A stretch of 42,661 nucleotides of DNA, taken from positions 1 through 42,661 of the forward strand of contig JAIPGA010000012.1 of assembly GCA_021736445.1 (NCBI GenBank), given 5' to 3'. The notes below the pieces were generated by a model. It saw only the letters and a list, made by a program, of their open reading frames with translations, did no database searches and had not been told where the DNA came from. A program made the translations under genes and the position numbers. Shown here in pieces: positions 5,151-37,037 of the stretch (positions are counted from its first letter, which is position 1; the number at the start of each line of letters is the position of its first letter). The DNA is from Synergistales bacterium. GTDB lineage: Bacteria > Synergistota > Synergistia > Synergistales > Aminiphilaceae.

Positions 5151-6440
5151 GTGGGAGATGACATAACCGGCAATCTGGCATCGCTTGTTGTTCTGCTCGT
5201 TCTTTCAGCACTGTTCAGTAGCACCGAAACGGCCATCACTGCAACAAGTCGCGCAAAGCTGACATCGCTTCAGGAGCGACATCCAATACTCAAAAGATTT
5301 TACAGCTGGTTGATGAACGACACCCAGGGTGCGTTGACGGCTACCCTTGTGGCAAATAACCTGATCAACATCGCTGCAAGTGCTCTCGCAACGACCATCT
5401 CGGTAAGGCTCTTTGGAAATCAGGGTGTACTCTACGCTATTATCGGCATGACGACACTGATTGTCATCTTTGGAGAAATCTTTCCCAAAAGTGTCGCCAT
5501 CATCCGTTCTGAGCACATTCTCTTTTTTACGTTGCCTGTACTGCGATTGACCTATCTCGTGTTCTTGCCGATTTTGTGGGGCCTCACGAAGATTGTGAGA
5601 TTCCTGGGTATTCTAACCCGCATCGACCTCTCCCCACAGCATACGTTTGTAACCCGGGAAGAGGTGGAACAACTCGTGCGCATGGGGGAGGCCTCGGGTG
5701 CCCTGGAGACGGAAGAGCGGAGGATGATCCACGGCATCATCTCGTTTGAAGAAACCAGGGCCTGCGAAATCATGGTGCCGAGAATGGACATGGTGGCCAT
5801 ATCTTCCGAACGCACCATCCATGAGGCGGTGGCGGTGTTTCAGGAATACGGGCATTCCCGTATTCCTGTTTTTGAAGAAGGTTTGGACAAGATCTCGGGC
5901 ATCCTCTACGTGAAAGATATCATCGGTGCGCTTTCGGGAGGAAGAATGGACGCACATATCTCCGAAATCCAGCGTGTGGCCCTCTTCGTTCCCGAGGTTG
6001 TCCGGACCAGCGAGCTCTTTGAGCTCATGAAACGCGAACGGACCCATATGGCGATCGTGGTGGATGAGTACGGGGGAACAGCCGGCCTTATTACCCTGGA
6101 GGATCTGCTTGAGGAAATCGTGGGCGAGATCCAGGATGAGTACGATCAGGAAGCCCCCGCCATACAGAAGGAATCGGAGTCCAGCTATCTGGCCGAGGGA
6201 TATGTAAATCTCGAGGAGCTTTCGGAGCGCCTGGGCTACTCCTTTCAATCGGAGGATGTGGACAGCCTGGGCGGCCTGATTCTCTCCCTCACCGGACGAT
6301 TCCCCGAAAAGGGGAATATTGTCTACTACGGGCCCTGGGTGATCGAGGTTCTCGAGGTGGAAGACCACCGGATCAAACTGCTCCGTCTGCAGTACGACGA
6401 AGATCGGTTTCAGTCTGGCGAAAATGCAGAGAAGGAATAA
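5151..6440 (+). CDS. CNNM/CBS-domain membrane protein (CorC/HlyC family)
   Basis: The protein has about 429 residues. An N-terminal DUF21/CNNM membrane domain has about four hydrophobic segments (first LASLVVLLVLSALF). It is followed by two CBS domains (first around ACEIMVPRMDMVAISSE, second around MKRERTHMAIVVDEYGGTAGLIT) and a C-terminal CorC_HlyC domain (SYLAEGYVNLEEL). Such proteins are linked to magnesium or other cation efflux; the older label haemolysin is not meaningful. The GTG at 5151 has GGGAGG (5133-5138) 12 bases upstream. An alternative GTG at 5127 lies within ybeY, adds eight polar residues and lacks a ribosome binding site. It is co-directional with ybeY and cdd. Confidence 0.88.
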   Translation: MGDDITGNLASLVVLLVLSALFSSTETAITATSRAKLTSLQERHPILKRFYSWLMNDTQGALTATLVANNLINIAASALATTISVRLFGNQGVLYAIIGMTTLIVIFGEIFPKSVAIIRSEHILFFTLPVLRLTYLVFLPILWGLTKIVRFLGILTRIDLSPQHTFVTREEVEQLVRMGEASGALETEERRMIHGIISFEETRACEIMVPRMDMVAISSERTIHEAVAVFQEYGHSRIPVFEEGLDKISGILYVKDIIGALSGGRMDAHISEIQRVALFVPEVVRTSELFELMKRERTHMAIVVDEYGGTAGLITLEDLLEEIVGEIQDEYDQEAPAIQKESESSYLAEGYVNLEELSERLGYSFQSEDVDSLGGLILSLTGRFPEKGNIVYYGPWVIEVLEVEDHRIKLLRLQYDEDRFQSGENAEKE

Positions 6441-30058: not shown

Positions 30059-32863
30059 GTGGCTCAAGATTTCAAAAAAACGTTAAATCTCCCCAAAACA
30101 AAATTTCCTATGCGTGCAAACCTCGCTAAAAGAGAGCCGGATTTTTTGAGTTTTTGGGAAAACGAAGATATATACAACAAGCTGAGAGAAAAAAACACGA
30201 ACAACGAAACCTTCATACTGCATGATGGTCCGCCCTACGCCAACGGAAACATTCATATTGGCACAGCCTTTAACAAAATATTGAAGGATTTCATACCTAA
30301 ATACAAGTGGATGCGCGGATACTACGCTCCCTATGTCCCAGGCTGGGACACACACGGGTTGCCCATTGAACTCCGTGTGTTACGGGAGAAAGGCATCACC
30401 AAAGAGGAAATCCCCGGGGCAACCCTCCGCTCCCAGTGCCAGGCCTATGCGGAGAAATACATCGATGTACAGCGCGAGGAATTCAAACGCCTTGGGGTGC
30501 TTGGCGAGTGGGGGAATCCCTACCTCACCTTCCGTCCGGAATACGAAGCGACCCAGCTGGAAGCATTCAGCGATATGGCGGAAAAAGAGCTCATCTACAA
30601 AGGTTTGAAATCCGTCTATTGGTGCACCGATTGCCAGACGGCGCTCGCTGCGGCAGAGATAGAATACGAAGACGAGTCGTCCACCTCGATCTATGTAGCC
30701 TACCCCCTTCTGGATATCTCGGATCGGTTTCCTTCGCTGGCCGGCAAGGAGGTATCGGTACTCATCTGGACAACAACAACCTGGACGCTTCCAGCAAGCC
30801 AGGCTGTTGCGATACATCCTGCCCTCACCTATGGCTTCTTCCCCACAGAGGACGGGCACATCTATCTCTTCGCCAAGGAACTCCAGGGAAAAATGGAGCG
30901 GATCTCCGGACTGGAGTTCGGCCAGCCTCTGCTCACGGTCAAGGGGAAAGAACTCGAGCTGGCCATGACAAGACATCCCTTTTACGACGACAGGGAGCTT
31001 CCCATCGTTCTGGCCGATTATGTCCAGCTTGATCAGGGAACAGGCTGTGTCCACACCGCGCCAGGTCACGGTGTGGAAGACTTCGAGACAGGCATGCGCT
31101 ACAACCTGGTAGTAGCGAATCCCGTTGATTCGAAAGGGGTATTCCTCCCCGATACGCCACTGGTTGGCGGCAAGGATCTCTCCGATGGCGCCGAGGTCAT
31201 CCTCGATGAACTCAGGACAAGAAACCGTCTTCTGGGAACAGAAAGGATTGTCCATTCCTATCCACACTGCTGGCGTTGCAAACAGCCGGTGATCTTCAGA
31301 GCCACCGAACAGTGGTTCGTCTCGGTGGCGCAATTCCGGAAGCAGGCGCTGCAACAGATCGACAACGTACAGTGGGTCCCGCACTGGGGACAGGACCGTA
31401 TCATGAACATGGTCCGGGACCGGTCCGACTGGTGTATCAGCAGACAGCGTGTCTGGGGTGTCCCGATCCCCGCGTTCTACTGTTCCGACTGTGGCGGATT
31501 GGTGTTGACGCCAGACCGGATCAGACGTGTGGCGGACAGGGTACGCAAAGAAGGCAGCAATATCTGGTGGGAGTTGAGTCCCCGGGATCTGCTGGGCGAC
31601 CTGGCCAGCTGTCCGGCCTGCGGGTCCACGAAGCTGAGAAAGGACACGGACATCATGGATGTCTGGTTCGATTCGGGCGTCAGTCACCTCTCGGTACTGG
31701 AGAACTGGCCCGACCTCTCCTGGCCGGCTGATATGTATCTGGAAGGGAGCGACCAGCATAGAGGCTGGTTCCAGACCTCCCTCCTCACCTCCGTAGCGAT
31801 TCGGGGAAGGGCACCCTACAGAAGCGTTCTCACCCACGGCTTCATCGTGGACGGTGAAGGACGGAAGATGTCAAAATCCCTGGGCAACGTCATCGCCCCC
31901 CAGGAGATCATCCAGAAATACGGCGCCGATATCCTGAGGCTATGGGTTGCGTCCACGGATTATCGCAATGATGTCCGGATCTCGGACAGCATCGTCAAAA
32001 ACCTCGTCGAGTCCTACCGTCGTATCAGGAATACCGCGCGCTTTATGTTGGGGAACCTTCGCGGCTTCTCCCCCTCGGATATCCTTCCCTACAAAGAGCT
32101 GACGGAGATCGACCAATGGATTCTCTCCAAGTTGCAACGCGTCATCAGCAAGAGCACACAGAGCTTCGACCGTTACGAGTTCCATGTGCCCACCTTTATC
32201 ATCCATCAGTTCTGTGTCAACGAAATCAGCTCCCTGTTACTGGATACCGGAAAGGACAGGCTCTACTGCGAGCACCCCTCCAACACCCGGAGGCGGAGTG
32301 CTCAGACGGTGATGTGGTATCTGCTGGACGCCCTGACACGGATGCTGGCCCCGGTGTTGAGCTTCACCGCCGAAGAAATCTGGCAGTATCTCCGCAAAAT
32401 CGATCCGACTATGCAGGAAAGTGTCCTTCTGGCGGATTGGCCCACTATCTGGGAACAGGCGGATGACCGAGCACTTGAAGAAGAATGGGAAACACTGCTT
32501 TCCTATCGAGGAGCGGTGAGCAGAGCACTGGAGCAAGCGAGAAGCCGGGAAATCATCGGACATCCCCTCGAATCGAGGATTACCATCGACGGCGATGGAA
32601 AAACAATGACATCCATGCAGAGGCGGGAACCCAGCTTCTGGGAAGAGCTGTGCATCGTTTCCCAGATGGCGTTTGCGCCCCCCGCCGCATCAATGGAAAG
32701 GTTTGAAGACGAACAGACAGGCCTGATCATCGGTATTGGCCCGGCAAAAGGCGAAAAGTGCCCCCGTTGCTGGCGATTTACCGAACAGGCCTCGGCGGAT
32801 GGACTCTGCCCGAGATGTGCCGAAGTCATGGAGAGGCTCTCTTCGGAAGAACGGCTCGACTGA
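30059..32863 (+). CDS. ileS: Isoleucyl-tRNA synthetase
   Basis: The 934-residue class I synthetase charges tRNA-Ile. The HIGH-box region reads PYANGNIHIGTAFNKILKD with H66-I-G-T69 in place of HIGH; the KMSKS loop is intact (K603-M-S-K-S607). The CP1 editing domain (WTTTTWTLPASQAVAIHP, GTGCVHTAPGHGVEDFE), the tryptophan-rich anticodon domain and a C-terminal zinc finger (CPRCWRF, CPRC) are all visible. The size and zinc finger fit the bacterial, mupirocin-sensitive type. The GTG at 30059 has GAGGGGG (30045-30051) upstream. A promoter for the next gene begins just after its stop. Confidence 0.97.
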   Translation: MAQDFKKTLNLPKTKFPMRANLAKREPDFLSFWENEDIYNKLREKNTNNETFILHDGPPYANGNIHIGTAFNKILKDFIPKYKWMRGYYAPYVPGWDTHGLPIELRVLREKGITKEEIPGATLRSQCQAYAEKYIDVQREEFKRLGVLGEWGNPYLTFRPEYEATQLEAFSDMAEKELIYKGLKSVYWCTDCQTALAAAEIEYEDESSTSIYVAYPLLDISDRFPSLAGKEVSVLIWTTTTWTLPASQAVAIHPALTYGFFPTEDGHIYLFAKELQGKMERISGLEFGQPLLTVKGKELELAMTRHPFYDDRELPIVLADYVQLDQGTGCVHTAPGHGVEDFETGMRYNLVVANPVDSKGVFLPDTPLVGGKDLSDGAEVILDELRTRNRLLGTERIVHSYPHCWRCKQPVIFRATEQWFVSVAQFRKQALQQIDNVQWVPHWGQDRIMNMVRDRSDWCISRQRVWGVPIPAFYCSDCGGLVLTPDRIRRVADRVRKEGSNIWWELSPRDLLGDLASCPACGSTKLRKDTDIMDVWFDSGVSHLSVLENWPDLSWPADMYLEGSDQHRGWFQTSLLTSVAIRGRAPYRSVLTHGFIVDGEGRKMSKSLGNVIAPQEIIQKYGADILRLWVASTDYRNDVRISDSIVKNLVESYRRIRNTARFMLGNLRGFSPSDILPYKELTEIDQWILSKLQRVISKSTQSFDRYEFHVPTFIIHQFCVNEISSLLLDTGKDRLYCEHPSNTRRRSAQTVMWYLLDALTRMLAPVLSFTAEEIWQYLRKIDPTMQESVLLADWPTIWEQADDRALEEEWETLLSYRGAVSRALEQARSREIIGHPLESRITIDGDGKTMTSMQRREPSFWEELCIVSQMAFAPPAASMERFEDEQTGLIIGIGPAKGEKCPRCWRFTEQASADGLCPRCAEVMERLSSEERLD

Positions 32864-32875
32864 GTGACAAACCGC

Positions 32876-32903
32876 TTGGTACAACGATATCCTGACGTAT
32901 AAT
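32876..32903 (+). promoter_or_regulatory. Promoter of the DksA/TraR-type gene
   Basis: TTGGTA (32876-32881), a 16-base spacer and a consensus TATAAT (32898-32903) lie between ileS and the zinc-finger gene. The predicted start near 32910 falls within the palindrome at 32901-32928, which overlaps the last bases of the -10 box. Confidence 0.65.
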
Positions 32904-32928
32904 GGGTACGGTGCATACCGTACCCATT
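32901..32928. repeat. Perfect 12-bp inverted repeat over the transcription start
   Basis: AATGGGTACGGT (32901-32912) and ACCGTACCCATT (32917-32928) are exact inverted copies around GCAT. The position over the -10 box and start point suits a repressor operator. As RNA it would form a 12-bp hairpin at the 5' end of the message; as an ileS terminator it lacks a T tract. Confidence 0.75.
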
Positions 32929-32956
32929 AGCAGTTTGAGAGGAGGGCGTTCCTCGA

Positions 32957-33319
32957 ATGGACTATGAAGCTCTGAAACAACGGCTGCAGCATGCGCATGC
33001 GCACAATCACGGACTTTTGCAGCAAATTGAAGAGCAGGTGGCAGCGGATGACACAGGGGATCCCCCCTTTCTTGATTCCGAACATCTTGGAGAGGGTGCC
33101 TCCTACCTGGCCAGCAGGGAAAGCGATATAGGTAATGTCGCCACACTCAGGCACGTACTCCGCGAAATCGAACACGCCCTCCATAAGATTGCTCACAAAC
33201 CGGGTGAGGTTGGATACTGTGAAATCTGCCGCAAGGAGATCAGTGAAGAGCGGCTGAGGGTAAAGCCGTGGGCCCGTTACTGCAGCTCCTGCCGGAGCAA
33301 ACGGGAGCAGAGGAGGTAG
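32957..33319 (+). CDS. DksA/TraR family C4 zinc-finger protein
   Basis: The 120-residue protein has an N-terminal helical region and the C4 zinc finger C88-x2-C91 ... C109-x2-C112 of the DksA/TraR family (YCEICRKEISEERLRVKPWARYCSSC). The middle stretch RESDIGNVATLRHVLREIEHALHKI resembles the YteA-type proteins of Gram-positive bacteria more than E. coli DksA. Family members bind RNA polymerase through the secondary channel and adjust promoter choice, often with ppGpp; whether this short form does so is unknown. The ATG at 32957 follows GGAGGG (32941-32946). It has its own promoter and palindrome. Confidence 0.85.
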   Translation: MDYEALKQRLQHAHAHNHGLLQQIEEQVAADDTGDPPFLDSEHLGEGASYLASRESDIGNVATLRHVLREIEHALHKIAHKPGEVGYCEICRKEISEERLRVKPWARYCSSCRSKREQRR

Positions 33320-33351
33320 ATCCTACGACGTTCGTTGGAAAAGACAGCTCT

Positions 33352-34326
33352 GTGCTGAATACAAACGAAAGAGAAAGCGGTTTCGATTCTACCGGAAGAT
33401 CGGAACAGGAGGCTCAGGACTTTGAGCAAATCGGCCTCACTGTGGGTCGAAAGGATAAGACAAAACGACTGGATGTGGTCGTTGCAGAGAAGCTGGAGAT
33501 CTCGCGTTCCCGTGCCGGCCGGCTCATCCGAAACGGGAATGTACACACCAGCCCTGCGTTTCCAGTCAAGCCCTCACTGAAATGCCCCTCTGGAACCCGG
33601 GTTACCGTCGAGTTCCCCCTCCTGTCCGAATTCCAGCTGGAAGCAGAAGAGGTCCCCTTTCAGGTTGTCTATGAAGACGAAGACTGTGTCGTTGTGGACA
33701 AACCGGCCGGTGTTGTCGTCCATCCGGCCCCAGGAAACTGGCATGGAACGCTGGTACAGGGGCTGCTCCATCGTTTCCCGGATCTAAAAGACTGGGGCAA
33801 TCTGCGACGGCCCGGTCTGGTGCACCGACTCGATGCCGGAACCTCAGGTCTTCTGGTCATCGCGCGGAATCAGTACGCCCAGGAGGAGCTGGGACAGGCC
33901 TTTCGGCTCCGCCAGGTGGAAAAGCACTATCTCGCTCTGGCGTGGAAGCGTGTGCAGTGGAGGGAAAAAACAGTGGCCCTTCCCTTGGGACGGGACCCGC
34001 ACAACCGTATCAGGATGACGGTCATTTCCTCGGGAAAGGCCGCAAAAACAGGATTCCAGCTATTGCGCTATGCCGGGAAAACCTCCCTGCTGCAATGCAG
34101 GCTCCATACCGGACGCACCCATCAGATCCGTGTGCATTGTGCGGCACAGGGACACCCTCTTGTGGGGGACAGACTGTACGGACCGGAGTTCCCACGGCTT
34201 CTAGATTTTGAAAGGCTTTTTCTGCATGCATGGAAACTTGGGTTCCGCCACCCTCGAACCAATCGCTTCCTCCAATTCAGATCGCCCCTCCCTCCGGAGC
34301 TGATTGAGCGTCTTCAAGCATTTTGA
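33352..34326 (+). CDS. Large-subunit pseudouridine synthase, RluD family
   Basis: About 324 residues: an S4 RNA-binding domain (KRLDVVVAEKLEISRSRAGRLIRNGNV) followed by the RluA/RluD catalytic domain with VVDKPAGVVVHPA and the active-site motif HRLDAGTSGLL (catalytic D161), then LHTGRTHQIRVHCA. It should modify uridines in 23S rRNA. The start is uncertain: AGGAGGT at 33311-33317 has no ATG, GTG or TTG in frame at usual distance. GTG 33352 is the first canonical start after dksA and is used here; GTG 33442 would just spare the S4 domain. It overlaps rqcH tail to tail by 50 bases. Confidence 0.9.
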   Translation: MLNTNERESGFDSTGRSEQEAQDFEQIGLTVGRKDKTKRLDVVVAEKLEISRSRAGRLIRNGNVHTSPAFPVKPSLKCPSGTRVTVEFPLLSEFQLEAEEVPFQVVYEDEDCVVVDKPAGVVVHPAPGNWHGTLVQGLLHRFPDLKDWGNLRRPGLVHRLDAGTSGLLVIARNQYAQEELGQAFRLRQVEKHYLALAWKRVQWREKTVALPLGRDPHNRIRMTVISSGKAAKTGFQLLRYAGKTSLLQCRLHTGRTHQIRVHCAAQGHPLVGDRLYGPEFPRLLDFERLFLHAWKLGFRHPRTNRFLQFRSPLPPELIERLQAF

Positions 34327-36098: not shown

Positions 36099-36173
36099 GG
36101 GGCTGTGGCGCAGTGGGAGCGCGTTTCCTTCGCACGGAAAAGGTCGGGGGTTCGAATCCCCCCAGCTCCACCA
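36099..36173 (+). tRNA. tRNA-Ala(CGC)
   Basis: GGGGCTG (36099-36105) pairs with CAGCTCC (36163-36169), with the G3-U70 pair that identifies alanine tRNAs; CCA is encoded. The anticodon stem TTTCC/GGAAA encloses TTCGCAC, giving anticodon CGC for GCG codons. Confidence 0.93.
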
Positions 36174-36179
36174 ACAATA

Positions 36180-36257
36180 CGGGGCGTAGCGCAGTCTGGC
36201 TAGCGCACCTGCTTTGGGAGCAGGGGGTCGAAGGTTCGAATCCTTTCGCCCCGACCA
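36180..36257 (+). tRNA. tRNA-Pro(TGG)
   Basis: CGGGGCG (36180-36186) pairs with CGCCCCG (36247-36253), followed by A and CCA. The anticodon loop TTTGGGA between CCTGC and GCAGG gives TGG. It follows tRNA-Ala by six bases. Confidence 0.95.
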
Positions 36258-36269
36258 TGGATGTTGTGT

Positions 36270-36344
36270 GCGGGAATAGCTCAGTGGTAGAGCAACTGCC
36301 TTCCAAGCAGTAGGTCGCGGGTTCGACTCCCGTTTCCCGCTCCA
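36270..36344 (+). tRNA. tRNA-Gly(TCC)
   Basis: GCGGGAA (36270-36276) pairs with TTCCCGC (36334-36340); discriminator T and CCA follow. The anticodon loop CTTCCAA between ACTGC and GCAGT gives TCC. It is a substrate of the GlyQS synthetase encoded in this window. Confidence 0.96.
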
Positions 36345-36360
36345 TCTTGGCTCCGGCCCC

Positions 36361-36389
36361 TTGACAGCCCAGGGGGCGCTCAGTATAGT
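36361..36389 (+). promoter_or_regulatory. Second promoter inside the tRNA cluster
   Basis: TTGACA (36361-36366), a 17-base spacer and TATAGT (36384-36389) lie 25 bases before tRNA-Arg(TCT). The cluster therefore seems to be two transcription units. An imperfect inverted repeat (GGCGCTCA / TGAGGGGCGC) surrounds the -10 box. Confidence 0.7.
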
Positions 36390-36414
36390 GAGGGGCGCTT
36401 TGACATCAGCTGTG

Positions 36415-36491
36415 GCGCCCGTAGCTCAACTGGAAAGAGCAACGGACTTCTAATCCGTAGGCTGTGAGTTCAAATCTCGCCGGGCGCGCCA
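36415..36491 (+). tRNA. tRNA-Arg(TCT)
   Basis: GCGCCCG (36415-36421) pairs with CGGGCGC (36481-36487), then G and CCA. The anticodon loop CTTCTAA between ACGGA and TCCGT gives TCT (AGA/AGG codons). It resembles the tRNA-Arg(TCG) at 36601 closely in acceptor and anticodon stems. Confidence 0.95.
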
Positions 36492-36508
36492 ATCCGCACC
36501 TTTGATAT

Positions 36509-36586
36509 GGTGAGCGTAGCTCAATTGGTTAGAGCGCTGGACTGTGGCTCCAGAGGCTGGGGGTTCAAGTCCCCTCGCTCACCCCA
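36509..36586 (+). tRNA. tRNA-His(GTG)
   Basis: GTGAGCG (36510-36516) pairs with CGCTCAC (36576-36582). The preceding G at 36509 is the extra G-1 of histidine tRNAs, opposite C73 (36583); CCA is encoded. The anticodon loop CTGTGGC gives GTG. Confidence 0.95.
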
Positions 36587-36600
36587 AGGTATACAGACAG

Positions 36601-36676
36601 GCGCCCGTAGCTCAGTGGACAGAGCGACGGACTTCGGATCCGTTGGTCGTGGGTTCGAATCCTTCCGGGCGCGCCA
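36601..36676 (+). tRNA. tRNA-Arg(TCG)
   Basis: GCGCCCG (36601-36607) pairs with CGGGCGC (36666-36672), then G and CCA. The loop CTTCGGA between ACGGA and TCCGT gives TCG, reading CGN codons. With the CCT and TCT forms, three arginine isoacceptors lie in this window. Confidence 0.94.
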
Positions 36677-36680
36677 ATGT

Positions 36681-36756
36681 GGACCGTTAGCTCAACTGGC
36701 AGAGCACCTGACTCTTAATCAGGGGGTTATAGGTTCGATTCCTATACGGTCCACCA
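36681..36756 (+). tRNA. tRNA-Lys(CTT), copy 1
   Basis: GGACCGT (36681-36687) pairs with ACGGTCC (36746-36752), then A and CCA. The anticodon loop CTCTTAA between CCTGA and TCAGG gives CTT. It is identical to copy 2 at 36870. Confidence 0.95.
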
Positions 36757-36869
36757 TTTATCTGCAAAGAAATACGCATAGCCACGTTCTAGAGGTTAAG
36801 CAGAAACGAAACCTTACCTATCATAGGAGCATCGACGTGTCTCGCTTTACCGCCAAATGTTTTGTGAAT

Positions 36870-36945
36870 GGACCGTTAGCTCAACTGGCAGAGCACCTGA
36901 CTCTTAATCAGGGGGTTATAGGTTCGATTCCTATACGGTCCACCA
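36870..36945 (+). tRNA. tRNA-Lys(CTT), copy 2
   Basis: It matches copy 1 at every base over the mature tRNA, and the identity includes one flanking T upstream (77 bases in all). The copies are separated by 113 bases of unrelated sequence in which I see no gene or promoter. Confidence 0.95.
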
Positions 36946-36953
36946 GAATGTCT

Positions 36954-37037
36954 GCGAGAGTGGTGGAATTGGTAGACACGTAGGATTTAGGATCCTATGG
37001 CTTAGCCGTGGGGGTTCAAGTCCCCCCTCTCGCACCA
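36954..37037 (+). tRNA. tRNA-Leu(TAG)
   Basis: GCGAGAG (36954-36960) pairs with CTCTCGC (37027-37033), then A and CCA. The anticodon loop TTTAGGA between TAGGA and TCCTA gives TAG. The long variable arm (TGGCTTAGCCGT) is that of a leucine tRNA; total length is 84 bases. Confidence 0.95.

Follow-up and report, generated by a model that had tools for sequence, protein, structure and literature searches.

What does a long perfect palindrome do when it lies across the predicted promoter of one gene and, at the same time, shortly behind the stop codon of the gene before it? The question is raised by a 93-bp gap between ileS and a gene for a DksA/TraR-type zinc-finger protein in an uncultured Synergistales bacterium, a gap that holds a perfect palindrome of 30 bp (32900-32929). 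Coordinates refer, unless a locus is named, to the window, that is, the whole stretch of 42,661 nucleotides that was analysed. The palindrome may act on DNA, as the site of a repressor, or in RNA, as a hairpin belonging to one of the two messages, and these possibilities are weighed here with evidence from the locus itself, from the source genome and from related genomes.

Results

The palindrome and its surroundings

The gene preceding the palindrome, ileS, encodes isoleucine--tRNA ligase (30059-32863, plus strand; TIGR00392, 934.7 bits, over the cut-off), and its stop codon is followed by the palindrome at a distance of 36 nt. The gene after it, referred to here as dksA-like (32957-33319, plus strand), encodes a YteA-like C4 zinc-finger protein of 120 aa, which matched PF01258 over the cut-off and both TIGR02890 (YteA-type) and NF033459 (DksA-like) below their cut-offs. 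Its likely ribosome-binding site, read from the sequence as AGGAGG (32940-32945, plus strand), begins 11 nt past the last base of the palindrome, with 10 bases between them, and is left uncovered by it. Next comes an ORF for a pseudouridine synthase of the RluA/RluD family (33268-34326, plus strand), the true start of which is probably downstream of 33268. Further along the same strand, the window also carries nine consecutive tRNA genes (36099-37037), including two copies of tRNA-Lys(CTT).

The two arms, TAATGGGTACGGT at 32900-32912 and ACCGTACCCATTA at 32917-32929, match exactly over 13 bases each and enclose the loop GCAT; a sequence-only reading of this DNA had recognised the perfect symmetry and the loop, and had measured the element short, at 28 bases with 12-base arms. 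As a piece of RNA folded in isolation, the palindrome is predicted to form a 13-bp stem of -19.8 kcal/mol. Among perfect inverted repeats of the window with loops of at most 10 bases it ranks first in length, and among 20 Markov versions of the window arms of at least 12 bases were absent, those of 11 occurring 0.05 times per version. The same reading was right that no T tract follows the stem, GCAGTTTGA having 3 T in 9 bases, and that the window holds no further copy, exact occurrences of the half site GGGTACGGT being confined to the two arms. Another palindrome of the window (5841-5868) was set aside, as it falls within the coding frame of a 437-aa ORF.

Searching the window with Rfam returned only tRNAs above the gathering score and left the palindrome unmatched, and a terminator scan of the window did not list it. 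Compared with a canonical intrinsic terminator, it has the stable hairpin and lacks the U tract right after the stem; compared with a REP-type repeated element, which has many copies in a genome, it is present as a single copy.

A predicted sigma-70-type promoter (32876-32903, plus strand), identified by consensus match only, runs into the palindrome. It consists of TTGGTA (32876-32881) and TATAAT (32898-32903) with a spacer of 16, agrees with the consensus at 10 of 12 positions, and its -10 hexamer is a perfect box of a kind found 27 times on both strands of 442,661 bases. The last four bases of this box, TAAT, are the first four of arm 1, so the palindrome had been correctly placed over the -10/+1 region of this consensus-defined promoter. 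By the rule of thumb that transcription begins some 5-8 nt past TATAAT, we take the start to lie at 32908-32911, within arm 1, and RNA beginning there folds into a short stub only. Because the predicted start is inside arm 1, the full stem would be available only to a protein bound to the DNA, or in RNA that reads through from ileS.

Intergenic palindromes in the source genome

The palindrome was compared with others in a genome sample made up of the window and 40 further stretches (L071-L110), totalling 841,089 bases or about a third of the assembly, with genes delimited by crude ORF calls. Perfect intergenic palindromes with arms of at least 9 bases numbered 38 in this sample against about 4.25 expected, those with arms of at least 11 bases 25 against 0.45, and those with arms of at least 13 bases 15, the element at 32900-32929 being one of them, against none in 20 rounds. 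None of the other palindromes listed for the sample shares its letters. Within its own genome, the palindrome is therefore not outstanding among intergenic palindromes.

Many members of this class are as poor in T as the element studied here. Fewer than 5 T were counted in the nine bases after the stem for 25 of the 38 palindromes with arms of at least 9 bases and for 15 of the 25 whose arms are at least 11 long, the richer side being taken in convergent and divergent gaps. The dismissal of a terminator by the sequence-only reading was thus accurate as to the missing T tract, but it loses force in a genome where a T-poor flank is shared by 25 of the 38 intergenic palindromes sampled. As for gap type, divergent gaps, which make up 23% of bases, hold 2 of the 25 palindromes with arms of at least 11 bases (binomial p 0.046), the other 23 being in tandem or convergent gaps; the depletion is not significant for arms of at least 9 bases (6/38, p 0.18). 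The element at 32900-32929 has the sequence features expected of a gene-end hairpin without U tract, namely a strong stem, a tandem gap, a position 36 nt past the ileS stop and T-poor sequence behind it. Taken together, these observations suggest that long T-poor palindromes are a gene-end hairpin habit of this genome.

The ileS-rluD junction in related genomes

A protein search detected the dksA-like gene in 13 of 61 genomes, the source genome included, each time between ileS and rluD; in the majority of the remaining loci that were read, these two are direct neighbours without it. The order ileS-(dksA)-rluD accordingly recurs in relatives. Three genomes of the same family gave no match to the dksA-like protein, two of them being only 81-83% complete, and the 180 genomes of the order included no further genome of the source genus. 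Searching genome contigs for close relatives yielded four distant loci only (33, 42, 41 and 31% identical), in a search from which near-identical records may be omitted. Reading the regions upstream of orthologues, the alignment of which the sequence-only reading had proposed as a check, revealed no similar palindrome in 12 relatives, whose proteins, at 29-47% identity, are too distant for a fair footprint.

The end of ileS was examined for hairpins in the best 30 of the 58 genomes with a match, the source included, by folding the 80 nt past the ileS stop (73 in L046, where the contig ends) and, as control, a stretch inside ileS. A folding z below -2 was obtained at 13 of 30 loci after the stop and at 3 of 30 inside the gene (Fisher p 0.0074), the loci not being independent of one another. 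Where no dksA-like gene was found the corresponding counts were 9/17 and 2/17 in the control (p 0.026), and loci with the gene, including the source, did not differ significantly from those without it (4/13 vs 9/17, p 0.28). Since 9 of the 13 positive loci have no dksA-like gene that could be found, the hairpin at the ileS end appears to be independent of dksA. Of the four positive loci with the gene, two (L048 and L055) form weak folds of -11.6 kcal/mol, and such a hairpin is missing from both same-family genomes that have an ileS locus (z 0.04 in L040 and 1.82 in L054).

Perfect arms of considerable length also occur after the ileS stop, reaching 21 bases in L050, 17 in L056 and 12 each in L052, L058 and L061. 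Four of these loci (L050, L052, L058 and L061) belong to a single genus (g13) and share stem letters that are almost identical in an alignment of the four. T runs follow the stem in L038, L056, L060 and L064, and are absent in L050 and L052. In another genus (g9), represented by L043, L044, L056, L060 and L064, a 13-pair stem lies between ileS and rluD, with 93.8% of pairs kept and both partners changed at 4 of the 13 pairs. Among 500 shuffles, which ignore relatedness and were evaluated on a structure taken from one of the five sequences, the observed value was reached by 1 for the percentage paired, by 4 for the number of such doubly changed pairs and by none for the covariation score. The pattern suggests that RNA pairing behind the ileS stop is under selection in genus g9, the stems of which are not homologous to the 32900-32929 palindrome.

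Repressor binding, 5' hairpin or chance

A dimeric repressor bound to the DNA palindrome over the -10/+1 region could block transcription of dksA-rluD, a reading that we take as the main alternative to an RNA hairpin and consider possible though less likely. The centre of the palindrome lies roughly 4-6 bp downstream of the predicted start, as in the classical position of a repressor site, and TAAT is common to arm 1 and the -10 box. The genome sample adds to this: among palindromes with arms of at least 7 bases located no more than 100 nt from one of 45 predicted promoters, 8 of 12 lie 0-40 nt past the -10 box (p 0.0006), or 7 of 11 when the 32900-32929 palindrome is left out (p 0.002), in counts checked for doubles in the stretch of that palindrome, where one was removed (two promoter matches precede 32900-32929). 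Lowering the arm length to at least 6 bases gives 12 distinct palindromes at 0-40 nt past the -10 box, three of which precede genes for TetR (arm 7), RpiR (arm 7) and IclR (arm 6) regulators. An operator stays plausible because palindromes cluster in this way just past predicted promoters, three of them before such genes. Like palindromic operators over -10/+1, for which these three are short candidates in the same genome, the element has the fitting position and symmetry; unlike them, it has arms about twice as long, 13 bases instead of 6-7, and neither a cognate regulator nor a second intergenic site was found. It seems, then, to stand where this genome puts operators, with an arm that is atypical of them. 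The short palindromes themselves, which follow the promoters of the TetR, RpiR and IclR genes at L075 524-789, L081 11532-11662 and L101 2424-2611, are candidate autoregulatory operators.

Against a repressor stands the outcome of the search for further sites. With up to 3 mismatches, the 18-base core of the palindrome has one other site in its own genome, at 3 mismatches and in a coding frame, and with up to 1 mismatch it has none in 179 other genomes of the order. Near matches with 2-3 mismatches were examined at 27 loci among the matches listed (18 of the 19 loci from other genomes, L023 being omitted for its identity in letters to L022 of a sister genome, and nine chosen by eye); 24 were coding, and the three intergenic ones (L016, L030 and L116) look, by eye, like gene-end hairpins. 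An Rrf2 operator was also considered and dropped, the site in L116 being more than 100 nt upstream of an Rrf2 gene with a different palindrome of its own; an Rrf2 match is present in 39 of 41 genomes. No DNA-binding repressor family gave a Pfam match among the 23 window ORFs scanned. No regulon was thus detected for the core, searched to 3 mismatches in its own genome, and neither further intergenic sites there nor an adjacent cognate regulator among the 23 window ORFs, either of which would be expected of an operator, came to light. What remains of the dimeric repressor that the sequence-only reading had suggested is the position over -10/+1 and the promoter-proximal clustering, while a regulon, a repressor in the window and a similar palindrome in the 12 (distant) relatives are all missing. 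Autoregulation by the dksA-like protein through the DNA palindrome, which it had raised as well, is unlikely because DksA is described, in part of a published account, as a binder of RNA polymerase (PMC4370453). The core recurs with another loop in two viral contigs that are alike over the 200 bases read. There it is preceded by a 176-aa ORF and, on one strand, TATTCTTTTTTG comes next, which hints slightly that this sequence makes a good terminator stem.

A hairpin at the 5' end of the dksA-rluD mRNA, shielding the message from decay, had also been put forward and appears improbable. It would suit the position of the palindrome, 10 bases before AGGAGG and not covering it, and the layout is repeated at L092 3615-3640, but the predicted start at 32908-32911 inside arm 1 leaves a stub, which weakens the proposal, and a full stem would require transcription to begin no later than position 32900, or ileS read-through RNA to be cleaved upstream of it. 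The L092 palindrome, on the minus strand of a tandem gap, has 10-bp arms with unrelated letters and a TATAAT box 4 nt before it; its flanking ORFs presumably encode, judging from translations alone, alanine dehydrogenase and transketolase. A chance symmetry or a remnant without function would fit letters that are not conserved in relatives and for which the genome yielded no other intergenic copy. Such an origin is very improbable in view of the 20 Markov windows, in which no arm of at least 12 bases arose, and of the 25 palindromes with arms of at least 11 bases, against 0.45 expected, in the genome sample.

Discussion

The reading preferred here, on which we are evenly balanced between acceptance and doubt, is that the palindrome acts mainly in RNA, as a hairpin that closes the ileS message at its 3' end. 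It is favoured over the operator because of the class of palindromes to which the element belongs in its genome and because hairpins recur after ileS in relatives. Transcripts of ileS would copy both arms and form a 13-bp stem 36 nt past the stop codon, and this stem could constitute the 3' end of the message through weak or factor-assisted termination; alternatively, it might block 3' exonucleases after cleavage, or after termination further on. Both a factor-assisted end and the blocking of exonucleases are possible, since Rho and PNPase are encoded in the genome. The dksA-like gene, with its own promoter, would be tucked against the stem, and RNA started from that promoter would begin inside arm 1 without a full stem, so that the hairpin would affect only read-through from ileS. 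In this scheme we infer a working promoter, the position of its start and an RNA end at the palindrome. The RNA role leaves the overlap with a perfect TATAAT box unexplained, and the clustering of sampled palindromes at 0-40 nt past predicted -10 boxes also speaks against it, as do the ileS ends of the two same-family genomes, which lack a hairpin of this kind.

An element serving both functions is a further, rather unlikely option. Here arm 1 would incorporate the last bases of the -10 box together with the dksA promoter's start, such that read-through RNA would be stopped or trimmed while RNA from the promoter would escape; loading of polymerase there and formation of the hairpin in read-through RNA would hence be alternative routes of supply for the dksA-like gene, perhaps with a protein that binds to the same symmetry.

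For the RNA hairpin at the ileS end, several known systems offer partial parallels. 'I-shaped' hairpins, which lack a U tract, are described within operons in parts of PMC5335608, for instance TtsaD in the alr-groEL1 operon of Mycobacterium tuberculosis, and the same pages call the evidence on whether they terminate contradictory. The likeness lies in a stem-loop without U tract between genes of the same direction, in an operon with internal promoters, whereas the phylum is different and the present palindrome is known from sequence alone (PMC5335608). Protective intercistronic hairpins of Escherichia coli, such as that of malE-malF, have been discussed in connection with programmed operon decay in sections of PMC5927463; there too a U-tract-less stem-loop follows the upstream gene of a tandem pair, and PNPase is encoded in the genome studied here, but in E. 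coli the evidence comes from mapped RNA ends and from decay (PMC5927463). Transcript ends dependent on Rho may be trimmed back to a hairpin without U residues and bear a C-rich, G-poor signature, according to portions of PMC13289151. The present locus agrees in its U-tract-less hairpin and encoded Rho, and differs in that no C-rich, G-poor stretch lies downstream of the palindrome (PMC13289151). A literature search for work on termination or promoters in Synergistetes gave nothing of use, though such work may exist.

Most likely, the palindrome is an ordinary member of the class of gene-end hairpins in which the overlap with a promoter is unusual. The locus illustrates that symmetry across a promoter, even when perfect, does not have to mean an operator. 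If the RNA reading is true, Synergistales would be a lineage that commonly ends or protects its messages with hairpins lacking a U tract, many of which would escape terminator finders built to require a T tract.
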